Shown piece after piece: positions 34,506 through 40,880 of a stretch of DNA of 64,000 bases (positions within the stretch are counted from its first letter, which is position 1; each line of letters starts with the position of its first letter). The notes beneath the pieces are model-generated. The model had not been told where the DNA came from and did not search any database. It was given only the letters and a program-made list of their open reading frames with translations. The translations under genes were made by a program, and so were the position numbers. This stretch comes from Verrucomicrobiia bacterium (lineage in GTDB: Bacteria; Verrucomicrobiota; Verrucomicrobiia; Palsa-1439): NCBI GenBank assembly GCA_022072455.1, contig JAJVHY010000028.1, positions 1 to 64,000 of the forward strand, given 5' to 3'.

Positions 34506-37500
34506 ATGATGCGATACCTCTTATCCCTACTTATCGTCCTTTCACTGAACTCAATCTCTAACGCCGCCGTGAGCACCGTTGGACCGGTGACCAACATCAC
34601 CATTACGGTGAGCGGAAACCTTACAAACGTGAACTTTTGGGTCAACAACGGCGCCAATAGTGGCGTCGCCCAGGTGACACCATTCGCGGCTGATGTAATC
34701 CGTGTCCGTTACTACTTCGCGGCGTTATGGTCCAAAGAAGAGCCGATGATCGCCAAGCAAACAAACCAATGGGCTACCGTCGCCGGCACGACTTACACCG
34801 ATCAAGGCAGTACGTATCTCATCGCCACACCGCAAGTTGACGTTGTGATCACCAAGAGTCCGAACTTCAAAATCGATTTTAAAGACAAGAGCGGCTACAC
34901 GCTGTTGCAGGACGACAAGATTCAGTTCGATCCAGACTACTTTTATACCGGCCAGAGCAGCTGGTCATCAGGCGGTTTCAAACTCAAGGCCACCAAAGTT
35001 ATGCCGGAGGGGCAGGCGTATTTCGGGGTCGGCGAAAACGGCGGCCCGATGAATCGGCGGGGGCGGGAAATGGAATGCTGGAACACTGGCACCTACAAAT
35101 GGGGCGAATTCCAAAACCCCACCTACCTGAACGTGCCGTTCTATTACGGTGTGCAACCCGCGGCGGGCAACGTCCCCGCTTTTGTTTATGGTGTGTTCTT
35201 CAATAATCCCTGCCGGCCACTCTTTTCGTTCGGAGCGAACAAGTCCGGCGCCAGTCGCGTCTCATTCGAGGCTGGTGACGGCCAGATGGATTACTTCTTT
35301 TTTGGCGGCGGAGCCAATCACACGATGGCCGGTGTCATTGACCGCTTTTCAGAACTGACCGGCCGTGCCACGTTCCTGCCAAAGTGGGCGTTTGGCCACC
35401 ACCTCAGCCGATTCAGCTATGACAGCCAGTCGTGGGTTGAATACATCGCCAACGAAGCCACCGTCCAAGACATCCCTTTGGATGCCGTCTATATGGACAT
35501 TGACTACATGCAGTATGGCTCGTTGGGCGACGGCAACATCCGCCAACTGACGGTTCGTCCCAGCACATTCTCCAACCCTGCCGGCATGATGAACTACTGC
35601 AACGCGCGTGGTGTCAAAGTGGTGCCGTTGATTGAGCCTTGGCTCCAACCCAATGACACCACCCTCTACAACGATGCCAACGCCAATTTCCATTTCATCA
35701 AGGACAATGGCAGCGCCACGGTCACGCGCAATATCTATGTCGGCCCCGTTTCTTGGTTTGATTACACCAGCACCAGCATGCGCACTTGGTGGCGCGACAA
35801 GATCGTCAACTGGTTCAACTCCTACAACTCCGGCAATCCCTCCTTCGCCGGCATCTGGAACGACCTGACCGAGCCGGAAGGCGGCGATGCCATTCCGTAC
35901 AACGGTTTGCTGTGGGCTGATGGCCGGTATGGCAACTCCACCACCGACAGCCGCCGGCATTGGTCGAACGAACGGAACTATTTCGGCCTCCGTTGCGCCT
36001 CGCAGAGCTATGAAACGATGCTGGCGAAGAATCCCAGTAAAAGGCCCTTTGTTCTCAGCCGCTCCGGCAACGCCGGCCTCCAACGGTATGCCGTCAGTTG
36101 GAGTGGTGACACCGGTGCCGATTGGTTCTACCAGCGGGCGACCATCCGGTTCGGCATGGGCGCGATGTTGGCCGGGGTGGGGTGGTACGGTAACGACGTC
36201 GGCGGATTCGTTGGCAATCCCGGCGATGAACTGCTCGTTCGCTCCTACGAGTTCAACATGTATACGCCGTTCTTCCGTAATCACGCGGACAAAGCTGCTG
36301 CCGACCGCGAGCCGTGGCGCTTTGGCGAGCCAACAAAAAGCCGGCTACGCAATCTCATCAAATACCGGTATCGATTGATGCCATATCTCTATTCACTCGC
36401 GTACAAATTCACCCAGACCGGCGAACCAATGAACGTCCCGCCGGTGTTTGATTATTATTCTGACGCCAACACCACCAATCTCAACGAGTACGAATTCATG
36501 ACGGGCGACTTCATTCTCGTCCCGCCAGTCTACCAGCAGGGCGCGACCACGCGGACCGTTTATCTGCCGTGGGCGAAAGATGTGGCTTGGTACTATTATC
36601 CAACCGGTGCGCGCTACAACGGCGGTCAACAGGTCACCGTCAATACACCGGTCGGCGGCACCAACATCTTCATCCGCTCCGGCGCGATTATTCCGATGGG
36701 GCAGACTGAGCAGTTCCTCGGGCAAACCAGCGTGGATTACCTCGATGTGCAATGCTGGCCGGAAGGCAACTCTACGTTCACCCTGTACGAGGATGCCGGC
36801 GATGGTTGGGATTACACGAACTCCACCGGCCGTTCCGAAATCACCTTCACCAGCTCCCGCGGTTCGACCAACTGGAACTTCACCGTGGGCTCCCGGCAGG
36901 GTGGCTACACCAACGCCATTGCGCGCAACTTCTACATCTACGCCAACAATCCGTCGCCCACGGTTTACGGCGTCAAGCTCAATGGCTCGGCGCTGCCGCA
37001 ACTGGCGAACTTCGGTGCAGGCCCACAGGGCTGGCTGATTACTGGCGGGAAACTTGGGATCAAAGTGCCGGACGACGGTTTGCAGAAAGTGCTCGAAGTG
37101 GATTGGGAAGAGTTCATCCCTGGCGATGCCGGCTCCGCCTTGGGCATCCCCGGCACATGGAGCGGCTGGGCTGACAGCACGCCACCGTGGGCGCTCCGCA
37201 AAGTTAATCCACCCGGCACACCAGCCGGTGTCAAGTGGTACACCAACACGATCCACGTCGCCGCGTCCGGCGGCAACATCACCGCCGGTACGTACCAATT
37301 CAAACTCCGCACTAACCAGGATTGGGCGAATAACTGGGGCGGCGGTGCGACCGTCAACATCAACGGCACCACCGCGCTTGGCTGGGGTGGCGCAGATGCC
37401 TCGATCACCCTGCAGAACGATTTCTACTACTCGTTCCGCGTCCTCGAACCGACGCTTAACTCCAGTGCGACCATCGCGGTCATGCGCACACCGTCGCGAC

Positions 37501-40500
37501 CGGTCGGTGTGACGTTCGCCGGTGTCTCACCTGGTTTCCCCACTGGCAATGACCCGGTCACAGTCAACATCACCCTCACCGCAGCGAAATCGGCGGACGA
37601 ACATATCTATGTCCGCTACACGACGGACAACTGGGCAACCAGTTCCTTTGTCGAAGCGACCGGCTCCGGGACCAGTTACTCCGCGGTCATCCCGGCAGCG
37701 CCGAACGGCACCACGGTCCGGTACTACCTCTTCAGCACCACCGTCACAACGGGTGGCGGCTTGAACCATTCCACCGCCGACGCGCTCGCGCTGAATCTCG
37801 ATACCAATGGCGGCATCAACTACAACTATACCGCCGCGCCGATCCCGTGGCCCGGTTTTGGTTATCCCAGCGACCCAGCGCAAAACATCCATCACTGGAA
37901 AGAAGAAGCCGTTGTCGGCAACGGGCACATGACAGTGATGCTTGATCAGAACGGCACTCTGTATGACTTCTATTTTCCGACTGTCGGTGGCGTGAGTGGC
38001 ACCGGTACCGCCAACGAAGGCTACCGTGGTCCGCAAGCCTGGCCACCGGGGTGCGAAGGTCTCGACCTCCAGGCCAATGGTCAGATGAACCTTATCGCCG
38101 CCATGGCCGGGATCGCGTTGCCCACTGACGACACCAATCCGGTCTATTGGCTCAAGAACGAAACGTTCACGAACTACGTTGACGTTGGCCAACGCTGGCT
38201 TAATGACGAAGTCAACATCGTCGTCACTTCCAATCGGCTCAACGTCGCTGGCGCGAATATCAAAGTCGTCCAATACGACTTCGTGCCCTCGGAAAATGCC
38301 CTGCCGGATATCACCAACGGCACCCGCACAAACAAGGCTGTTCACGTCAAACGTGTCCTGCTCACCAATAACGAGGCTTCGAGCAAGACCATCAACTTCT
38401 ACTGGGACGTCAACTTCAACGTCAAAGGCGACAACGCCTACGACGAGATGTTCTGGGAAGGCACGGTCGGCGGCACCAATTACAACGCGCTCATCGTCCG
38501 CGACAATGTCGGGCGCATGGCGACTGGCGGGTGGTGTGATCCCAACGGGTACGGCGGCGTCAGTTGGAAGGAATACAATCTGTCCGGCGTCGAAGGCGGC
38601 TGGGCCAAGAGCAACTCCGTCTATTTCGCCACCGTGATGAAAGTCGTCACCAACTCCGGCAGCGGCCTCGGCTTGCCGGCGGAAGGCAGTTGGCGCGATC
38701 ATACCGCCACCGACAATCAGGAGGGCTGGATTGGCCGGCAAATTATTATTCCGGCTGGCGAGACTGTCGAGGTGGACGTCATGACTGTTGGTTCGTGGGA
38801 TAACTTCCCGAACACCACCGGCACCCACAACTTCTGGGGGCGGCCGATGATCACGTGGTTCTACAATAACAACATGAGCACTGTGCAGGATGCCACCTCG
38901 ACCTGGTGGACGAACTGGCTGGCCGGCGGCGTCACCGTGAACTTCCCGGATCCCGACTACAACCGGTTGTTCAAACGCTCGTTGTTGATCAGCAAACTCC
39001 ATGCGGATCCCGTGCACGGCGGCATTCTCGCCGGTATGCATAACGGTGCGTATCCCTACGTATGGCCGCGCGACGGCATCTATGCGGCGATCACGTTCAA
39101 CCGCACCGGTCACCCCACCGAAGCGGCCGCGTTTTACCAGTGGCTCAACAACGTCGAACGCCCCAACGAATCGTGGGGTAAAGGTTTCTTCTTCCAGAAA
39201 TACACCACCGACGGGAAGCCCGTCTGGCGGACACCGCAGGTGGACGAAACCGCCGGCGTCCCGTGGGGCATGTGGTACTACTACTTGGTGACCGGCGATG
39301 GCGCGTTCCTCTCCAACAACTGGAATCTCGCCTACACTTCCGCCCGTGCCTCCAGTGAAGACAGCACGTTCGACTCCCGGTTGTATTTCCACGACATCAA
39401 CCGGCTGGTTGGCAGCATGAACATCTGGGAAGACCAGAATGATGAATTCCTCTATTCCAACGCCAGCGTCGTTCGCGGGCTGCGCGATGCAGCCACCATC
39501 GCCAGCTTCGTCGGCAGCAACAGTTGGACGACCGAGTTCAACAACCGCGCCACCGACATTCGCGATAACGGCATCATTCCGCGCATTGACGCCCGCACGG
39601 AAACCTCGGATATCAGTCAAATGGGCCTGGTGGTGCCGTTCGAAATTTTCGAGCCCACCGACCCGCGCATGACCAACATGGTCGAATGGCTGCATGGCCG
39701 GCAAGTGGCAGGCGGCTTTAGCGGTGCAGATGGCGATCTGCTTGAGCCCAGCGGCACCTCAGCCGGCTGGCTCCGGCGGTACAACTTCAAAACCGTCAGC
39801 CCCAATGAAGCAGACATATACTGGAACGGCGGCCCGTGGACTTTGGCCAACTGCTGGTACGGCATGTACTACACCCGCTGGCAGGACTATTCCGCCGGTA
39901 AGTCCCAGGTGGACATCAGTAAAGACAAAATCGATCTCGTGATCGATAAACTCGGCCCTATGGGATTGGGTGCCGAACAGATTGCCGCCAACGTCGGCGA
40001 ACAGAAATATCCTGACTTCTGGCTCCAGACCGCGTGGCCGAATGTCTGGGAATCGCATGCCTTGTTGCTCGATCAGATGATGATGTTCCTCGACTACCGG
40101 CCCGAGACTAACAACACCTGCGCTTTCGCGCCAAAACTCCCGAGTGATTGGAGCACGTTGACTTTTAACAACCTCCACTATCGCAACCACCGCCTGAACT
40201 TCACCATTCAGGAAGGCGCAACGGCCACAACCGCCACCATCAATAAGCTGACGACCGGCGCGCTCAACGCCGACCTTTGGTTGCGCTTGCCGGCGGGTGA
40301 AACCCCGGCACTCGTCCTCACCAATGGCGTTCGGGTCTTGGCGTTTACCTACGACAACGCGGCCCGGCGCGTCCGCATTGCCGGCCCATTGAACCCAGCC
40401 ACCGGTAACAACACCCTCACCGTCACCTACGGTGCGGCGGATACCGACAACGATGGGTTGACCGACGCGCAGGAGTTGGCGCTTGCTTCCGATCCGATGA

Positions 40501-40880
40501 ATCCCGACAGCGATGGCGATGGGATGACCGATGGTTTTGAGAATACTCATTTTGCAAGCCCCATCGCCGGTAACGCCAACGACGACAGCGATGGCGACGG
40601 CCAGAGCAACCTTGCCGAATTCCAGACCGGCACAATCCCGACGGACTCCGGCTCCGCCATGCGGATCCTGAGTGTTGCCCGGCAGCCGAACGGCGATGTC
40701 CTCGTGACAGCGTCCAGTGTCGTGAACAAGAAATACGTCCTGTTGGCGGCGACGAATCCGAGCGCACCCAGTTACGGCGCCATCAGTTCCACGAACACGG
40801 CAGTCGGGGTGACAATCACTTTCACCGACCCCGCCCCCGGTGGTTCAATGAAGGTCTACAAAGTCCAGTACATCCCGTAG
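34506..40880 (+). CDS. giant secreted GH31 alpha-glucosidase / GH15 glucoamylase fusion with TSP3 repeats
   Basis: 2124 residues. A signal peptide (about 1-20, MMRYLLSLLIVLSLNSISNA) is followed by a GH31 module. Its nucleophile is D453 in GIWNDLTEP and its acid/base D535 in SWSGDTGADW, with the usual beta domains after. Residues about 880-1000 hold a small beta-sandwich (YQFKLRTNQDWANNWGGG) like SusE/X25 starch-binding modules, and about 1000-1100 another Ig/CBM-like module. A second catalytic module, about 1115-1960, resembles GH15: HHWKEEAVVGNGHM, YVWPRDGIYAAITFNRTGHP (D1523), MNIWEDQNDEFLYSNAS (E1642) and IYWNGGPWTLANCWYGMYY. Residues 1979-2050 carry thrombospondin type-3 calcium repeats (DTDNDGLTD, DSDGDGMTD, DSDGDGQSN) and a C-terminal beta domain ends the chain. 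Both enzymes release glucose from alpha-glucans, so the protein probably degrades starch, glycogen or a branched glucan at the surface. Confidence 0.88.
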   Translation: MMRYLLSLLIVLSLNSISNAAVSTVGPVTNITITVSGNLTNVNFWVNNGANSGVAQVTPFAADVIRVRYYFAALWSKEEPMIAKQTNQWATVAGTTYTDQGSTYLIATPQVDVVITKSPNFKIDFKDKSGYTLLQDDKIQFDPDYFYTGQSSWSSGGFKLKATKVMPEGQAYFGVGENGGPMNRRGREMECWNTGTYKWGEFQNPTYLNVPFYYGVQPAAGNVPAFVYGVFFNNPCRPLFSFGANKSGASRVSFEAGDGQMDYFFFGGGANHTMAGVIDRFSELTGRATFLPKWAFGHHLSRFSYDSQSWVEYIANEATVQDIPLDAVYMDIDYMQYGSLGDGNIRQLTVRPSTFSNPAGMMNYCNARGVKVVPLIEPWLQPNDTTLYNDANANFHFIKDNGSATVTRNIYVGPVSWFDYTSTSMRTWWRDKIVNWFNSYNSGNPSFAGIWNDLTEPEGGDAIPYNGLLWADGRYGNSTTDSRRHWSNERNYFGLRCASQSYETMLAKNPSKRPFVLSRSGNAGLQRYAVSWSGDTGADWFYQRATIRFGMGAMLAGVGWYGNDVGGFVGNPGDELLVRSYEFNMYTPFFRNHADKAAADREPWRFGEPTKSRLRNLIKYRYRLMPYLYSLAYKFTQTGEPMNVPPVFDYYSDANTTNLNEYEFMTGDFILVPPVYQQGATTRTVYLPWAKDVAWYYYPTGARYNGGQQVTVNTPVGGTNIFIRSGAIIPMGQTEQFLGQTSVDYLDVQCWPEGNSTFTLYEDAGDGWDYTNSTGRSEITFTSSRGSTNWNFTVGSRQGGYTNAIARNFYIYANNPSPTVYGVKLNGSALPQLANFGAGPQGWLITGGKLGIKVPDDGLQKVLEVDWEEFIPGDAGSALGIPGTWSGWADSTPPWALRKVNPPGTPAGVKWYTNTIHVAASGGNITAGTYQFKLRTNQDWANNWGGGATVNINGTTALGWGGADASITLQNDFYYSFRVLEPTLNSSATIAVMRTPSRPVGVTFAGVSPGFPTGNDPVTVNITLTAAKSADEHIYVRYTTDNWATSSFVEATGSGTSYSAVIPAAPNGTTVRYYLFSTTVTTGGGLNHSTADALALNLDTNGGINYNYTAAPIPWPGFGYPSDPAQNIHHWKEEAVVGNGHMTVMLDQNGTLYDFYFPTVGGVSGTGTANEGYRGPQAWPPGCEGLDLQANGQMNLIAAMAGIALPTDDTNPVYWLKNETFTNYVDVGQRWLNDEVNIVVTSNRLNVAGANIKVVQYDFVPSENALPDITNGTRTNKAVHVKRVLLTNNEASSKTINFYWDVNFNVKGDNAYDEMFWEGTVGGTNYNALIVRDNVGRMATGGWCDPNGYGGVSWKEYNLSGVEGGWAKSNSVYFATVMKVVTNSGSGLGLPAEGSWRDHTATDNQEGWIGRQIIIPAGETVEVDVMTVGSWDNFPNTTGTHNFWGRPMITWFYNNNMSTVQDATSTWWTNWLAGGVTVNFPDPDYNRLFKRSLLISKLHADPVHGGILAGMHNGAYPYVWPRDGIYAAITFNRTGHPTEAAAFYQWLNNVERPNESWGKGFFFQKYTTDGKPVWRTPQVDETAGVPWGMWYYYLVTGDGAFLSNNWNLAYTSARASSEDSTFDSRLYFHDINRLVGSMNIWEDQNDEFLYSNASVVRGLRDAATIASFVGSNSWTTEFNNRATDIRDNGIIPRIDARTETSDISQMGLVVPFEIFEPTDPRMTNMVEWLHGRQVAGGFSGADGDLLEPSGTSAGWLRRYNFKTVSPNEADIYWNGGPWTLANCWYGMYYTRWQDYSAGKSQVDISKDKIDLVIDKLGPMGLGAEQIAANVGEQKYPDFWLQTAWPNVWESHALLLDQMMMFLDYRPETNNTCAFAPKLPSDWSTLTFNNLHYRNHRLNFTIQEGATATTATINKLTTGALNADLWLRLPAGETPALVLTNGVRVLAFTYDNAARRVRIAGPLNPATGNNTLTVTYGAADTDNDGLTDAQELALASDPMNPDSDGDGMTDGFENTHFASPIAGNANDDSDGDGQSNLAEFQTGTIPTDSGSAMRILSVARQPNGDVLVTASSVVNKKYVLLAATNPSAPSYGAISSTNTAVGVTITFTDPAPGGSMKVYKVQYIP

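Follow-up and report, generated by a model that had tools for sequence, protein, structure and literature searches.

A Verrucomicrobiia gene that probably encodes a secreted alpha-glucan-degrading enzyme with both a GH31 and a divergent GH15-type catalytic module

One question raised by the DNA analysed here, a 64,000-nucleotide stretch from a Verrucomicrobiia bacterium (contig JAJVHY010000028.1; the window), is what a single gene might gain by encoding two catalytic modules that are both of mainly exo-acting, glucose-releasing types, one from glycoside hydrolase family GH31 and one of GH15 type. The gene (34506..40880 on the forward strand, as are all its features given below) is one frame of 2124 amino acids that starts with ATG, has GGAG a few bases upstream and runs without an internal stop. 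From the N- to the C-terminus its product consists of a likely signal peptide, a GH31 enzyme, two beta-modules, a GH15 barrel, a GH65C-type beta-domain, TSP3 repeats and a C-terminal domain. A preliminary description of the locus had proposed that the two enzymes share one polypeptide, and this is borne out by the single frame, by Pfam and NCBIfam matches to both families and by the retention of both catalytic pairs; the positions and residue numbers that it gave for GIWNDLTEP, SWSGDTGADW, YVWPRDGIYAAITF and NIWEDQNDEF are also exact. The gene probably encodes a secreted double-catalytic alpha-glucan-degrading enzyme that arose when two secreted enzymes, a retaining GH31 enzyme and a divergent GH15-barrel enzyme that would be inverting, were joined in frame.

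All three GH31 domain profiles (PF13802, PF01055 and PF21365) score above their cut-offs, which makes the N-terminal half a complete GH31 enzyme. A likely signal peptide (residues 1-20, MMRYLLSLLIVLSLNSISNA; 34506..34565), read from the sequence, precedes the mutarotase-like N-terminal beta-domain (residues 56-237; 34671..35216; PF13802, Gal_mutarotas_2, 2.3e-22), the TIM barrel (residues 290-631; 35373..36398; PF01055, 1.2e-79; also supported by a search of the own genome) and the C-terminal beta-domain with DUF5110 (residues 639-809; 36420..36932; PF21365, GH31_3rd, at 639-729 and PF17137, DUF5110, at 746-809). GIWNDLTEP (residues 449-457) holds the nucleophile D453 (35862-35864) and SWSGDTGADW (residues 531-540) the acid/base D535 (36108-36110), neither of which varies among seven aligned sequences; the core motifs of the -1 subsite are kept (YMDIDYM, WND, RSG, WSGD, NDVGGF and RNH). 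This half would act as a retaining alpha-glucosidase. Its best solved relative is 6jr6, which we take to be FjDex31A; it matches the curated MalA model at 310 bits, well below the 800-bit equivalog cut-off, and further matches are to endoplasmic reticulum glucosidase II, MGAM and the GH31 oligosaccharide 4-alpha-glucosyltransferase 4b9y. The closest solved and curated relatives, FjDex31A-type GH31 enzymes and MalA, are single-catalytic, unlike the fusion.

What, then, is the second catalytic module? The (alpha/alpha)6 barrel of GH15 spans about residues 1490-1865 (38973..40100) and is recognised by PF00723, by the NCBIfam model oligosac_amyl (GH15, TIGR01577; 1e-33) and by alignment to known GH15 enzymes. 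Within it YVWPRDGIYAAITF occupies residues 1518-1531 and NIWEDQNDEF residues 1639-1648. The acid Glu of GH15 is expected in the alpha5-alpha6 loop and the base Glu in the alpha11-alpha12 loop; by alignment the general acid is E1642 in NIWED (39429-39431) and the general base E1824 in GLGAEQIA (39975-39977). Both have aligned counterparts in a bona fide Verrucomicrobia glucoamylase, by hhalign also, and in two GH15 trehalases (L092-L094), as well as in TtGA (1lf6; WEE/SEQ) and AgGD (1ug9), for which the residue pairing agrees with the hhalign run. A conserved WPNVWESH (residues 1846-1851), considered as a GH15 base region lacking its base in a phosphorylase-like half, was ruled out, given that the base aligns with E1824.

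The barrel is preceded by the N-terminal beta-sandwich region of the GH15-type enzyme (residues 1111-1489; 37836..38972), which is without a Pfam match, is conserved in the family and is strand-rich in a low-confidence model. It is followed by a GH65C-type beta-domain (PF03633 above cut-off; match at residues 1869-1905, domain to about 1970; 40110..40415) that, like the base E1824, is absent from the preliminary description and was identified here. All six family members have GH65C, and GH15 is matched in all five whose sequence takes in the barrel; five other Verrucomicrobiota GH15 proteins gave no GH65C match. The central catalytic domain of GH65 found no match in the GH15 half up to E = 1, and the family possesses the base Glu, unlike the GH65 phosphorylases, which are distinguished by phosphate-binding residues in place of the general base. 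The name 'GH15 glucoamylase' used earlier was apt as to type but too firm as to activity, the half being a divergent GH15 enzyme with a GH65-type C-terminal domain whose linkage specificity is only predicted. Trp390 of TtGA is an alpha-1,4 marker and Trp582 of AgGD an alpha-1,6 marker (PMC12446779); they pair with W1574 and W1773 respectively, the second in a gappy and less certain stretch of the alignment, and the presence of both suggests tolerance of both linkages. A tentative proposal, itself somewhat doubtful, is that the C-terminal half represents a separate (sub)family of clan GH-L, with a GH15 barrel plus GH65C, that accepts alpha-1,4 and alpha-1,6 ends. The GH15/GH65C combination may deserve a subfamily of its own.

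The origin of the join is best approached through its relatives. Among 286 genomes of the class, the GH15 half was found only in the window's own family (59% identity in G005, 58% in G048, 55% in a paralogue on contig C30 of the same genome, and pieces in G039 and G066), the other matches in the class being remote GH15 proteins; for the GH31 half identity is 64% in G066 and 55-56% in G005 and G048. In the latter two genomes the enzymes are separate secreted proteins on different contigs, with open frames of 1261 (G005) and 1243 (G048) amino acids for the GH31-only proteins and 1333 and 1296 for the GH15-type proteins. The GH15-derived part of the fusion begins, by identity to relatives, with beta-module 1 (the IPGTW module, residues 877-990; 37134..37475), which is 48-50% identical to the GH15-type proteins of G005 and G048 and 64% to the GH31 protein of G066; beta-module 2 (residues 991-1110; 37476..37835), with a weak CBM53-like match, is 60.5% identical to the same GH15-type proteins. 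Together residues 877-1110 match the stand-alone GH15-type N-terminus at 55-56% over 234 amino acids, as against matches to the GH31-only proteins that are brief and marginal, which places the junction near residue 873-877. The join thus lies directly before the point at which the mature GH15-type protein starts; the GH31 enzyme has given up the C-terminal modules and tail that it once had and makes use of its partner's. Close relatives make both enzymes separately, which suggests that activity does not depend on their being fused.

The genome carrying the fusion is a 36-contig draft, so an assembly or frameshift artefact has to be considered, but it is very improbable given an unbroken frame, even composition (GC and GC3 along the gene, with GC3 at 0.69-0.81) and the same junction of GH31 with the GH15 module in another genus, G066. 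There the GH31 frame can be followed at 62% identity as far as residue 983, with 64% over the GH15-type module, before its contig ends, and the last ~350 residues of a GH15-type protein begin at the edge of another contig; a search of that assembly for the intervening middle did not find it. The simplest reading of the pieces is the same fused gene, broken up in the assembly, and a shared junction makes misassembly in the window unlikely. It is also hardly likely that one half has lost catalysis and acts instead as a binding or scaffolding unit. Such a loss would fit a GH15 barrel that is divergent and only marginally recognised by Pfam, but its acid and base Glu, WPRD and partner Tyr are kept in those family members that cover these sites, the GH31 half keeps its core -1 subsite motifs, and at the level of sequence neither pair (D453/D535 or E1642/E1824) has been lost. 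Several observations do weigh against a double-catalytic alpha-glucan enzyme. The GH15 Pfam match (residues 1490-1784) reaches 22.9 bits in the full protein and 26.3 for the half alone against a cut-off of 22, a marginal score that leaves specificity uncertain, and the relatives L001 (19.0) and L095 (20.9) fall under the PF00723 cut-off. For both halves the AlphaFold models (mean pLDDT 50; pTM 0.56 and 0.44) are too poor for placing active sites; for this reason a Foldseek search with the C-half model, which ranks GH65/GH94 phosphorylases at the top and TtGA 30th, supports clan-type architecture only. The beta-modules lie between the halves as had been described, but they fail the starch-binding profiles (CBM53 18.5 bits, cut-off 27.6; X25 16.1, cut-off 27), so that for these modules, described earlier as starch-binding-like, starch binding is only suggested. 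Finally, the gene is flanked by a phosphoglucomutase/phosphomannomutase-type gene and by DUF1801 and fumarate-hydratase genes, mostly housekeeping neighbours rather than a starch cluster.

The remaining alternatives concern how each half would handle its substrate. A clean family profile gives dextran dextrinase 9ju0 as its single significant match among solved structures (1.7e-7; isomaltose glucohydrolase follows at 0.06), which would fit a GH15 half that is a retaining transglucosidase; the match of profile A2 to TtGA at 2.8e-41 is inflated by the inclusion of the true glucoamylase L093 in A2. Retaining dextran dextrinase is marked by a Gly-Glu dyad (PMC12446779), yet the fusion has Ala1823-Glu1824 and its relatives Ala/Ser-Glu, and Ile/Asn-Tyr apparently stands where the Phe-Tyr dyad would be, which makes this alternative improbable; Ala-Glu in place of Gly-Glu suggests instead that the half is inverting. 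A rather unlikely reading, near to the idea in the preliminary description, is a make-and-break pair in which the GH31 half acts chiefly by transglucosylation, forming for example alpha-1,6 or alpha-1,3 linked oligosaccharides, and its products are hydrolysed by the GH15 half. It draws on 6jr6 as best solved GH31 relative and on the match to 4b9y, and FjDex31A transglycosylates isomaltooligosaccharides besides hydrolysing them, with chain-length tuning for a partner glucosidase having been proposed (PMC10316084). The hydrolases MalA, glucosidase II and MGAM match about equally, however, and sequence cannot separate the two modes. Channelling of substrate between the halves, as first envisaged, is not supported, no shared path between them being seen in sequence or models; two exo-acting glucosidases of complementary linkages in one secreted enzyme would be a simpler account. 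Exo-alpha-glucosidase activity is predicted for both halves, the C-terminal one as an inverting alpha-glucohydrolase of clan GH-L. Both sites would then release glucose at the non-reducing ends of alpha-glucans resembling starch or glycogen, or of their oligosaccharides, between them covering complementary linkages, while the beta-modules and the TSP3/C-terminal tail could hold them together on the substrate or cell surface. The gain would be proximity and a fixed 1:1 stoichiometry.

How unusual is such an arrangement? It had been called so at the outset, and a census of 388 Verrucomicrobiota genomes agrees. A GH15 match at E <= 0.001, a threshold at which divergent GH15 proteins are missed, was present in 40 of them, and apart from the window none held a GH15 frame longer than 1119 amino acids, which is too short for a GH31-GH15 fusion. 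Among the matches listed from a scan of genome contigs (80 loci), three match the GH15 half, all from Verrucomicrobia; among those listed from a plasmid tblastn search only the GH31 half is matched, and no record covers 80% of the fusion protein. A GH31-GH15 fusion was not found named in the literature searched, CAZy itself lying outside that search. The combination is likely new, and the gene is a real, uncommon double-catalytic fusion that belongs to the known multicatalytic glycoside hydrolases.

Among these, sucrase-isomaltase and maltase-glucoamylase place two glucose-releasing units with complementary linkages in one secreted or surface polypeptide. Both of their units are GH31, whereas the second unit of the fusion is of GH15/clan GH-L type and expected to be inverting. 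GH66-GH15 fusions are also known, such as the CITase of Thermoanaerobacter thermocopriae, in which a GH15-type domain likewise lies C-terminal to another alpha-glucan-active catalytic domain; the partner there is GH66, and the GH15 domain falls in the retaining dextran-dextrinase cluster (PMC12446779). With TtGA and AgGD the GH15 half shares an N-terminal beta-domain followed by an (alpha/alpha)6 barrel, with acid, base, Asp and Tyr aligned, but similarity is low, Glucodextran_N is not recognised and the GH65C-type domain is extra. The kojibiose hydrolase FjGH65A (GH65, 7fe3; PMC8626586) is similarly a hydrolase of clan GH-L that has a general acid/base pair, and a single-sequence phmmer search matches it at 0.0017; the C-terminal half of the fusion differs in having no Pfam match to the GH65 central domain and a barrel that fits GH15 models far better.

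With the same two enzymes apart in relatives and joined here, the benefit of joining a retaining to a predicted inverting glucosidase becomes directly measurable. The GH15/GH65C hybrid half bears on the divergence of GH15 and GH65 within clan GH-L. Should it take both alpha-1,4 and alpha-1,6 ends, the fusion would be a one-protein system able to break branched alpha-glucan down completely to glucose; enzymes that act on both main starch linkages would be useful for saccharification in practice.

Secretion is predicted from the N-terminal hydrophobic segment, and retention at the cell surface may be proposed from the TSP3 repeats and the common C-terminal domain only. The calcium-type TSP3 repeats noted earlier at the end of the protein are confirmed, with two repeats at residues 1979-2050 (40440..40655; PF18884, 37.9 bits). 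By comparison across family genomes, the domain at residues 2051-2124 (40656..40877) is common to many proteins of this bacterial family. This ~75-residue post-TSP3 domain recurs in large proteins, with 26 matches in G005 and 40 in G048 (TSP3 overlap counted), and also in G000 and other family genomes, and so seems to be a general tail for export or for sorting to the surface.

The stand-alone GH15-type gene of G048 (L001) adjoins GH13 and GH57 genes, and that of G005 has a GH13 neighbour. G066 carries a GH57 gene on the same contig as its GH31 gene and a GH13-type frame beside the GH15 piece. The unfused GH15/GH65C paralogue of the own genome (L097, 6587-10156 on G000:C30) adjoins a GH13 amylase. 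These GH13 and GH57 neighbours support an alpha-glucan substrate. Distant GH31 relatives of 40-42% identity (L131 and L132, in G212 and G270) are about 1390 amino acids long; their GH31 domain is followed by several beta-modules in tandem, which may form a carbohydrate-binding array. In G066 a 1155-amino-acid protein between the GH57-type and GH31 genes (L128, 2823-6287 on C202) gives only a TSP3 match and shares 52% identity with the fusion at the C-terminus; adjoining the GH15-type gene is a frame of 2908 amino acids (L133, 3666-12389 on C218) with a GH13 match near the N-terminus and TSP3 at the end.

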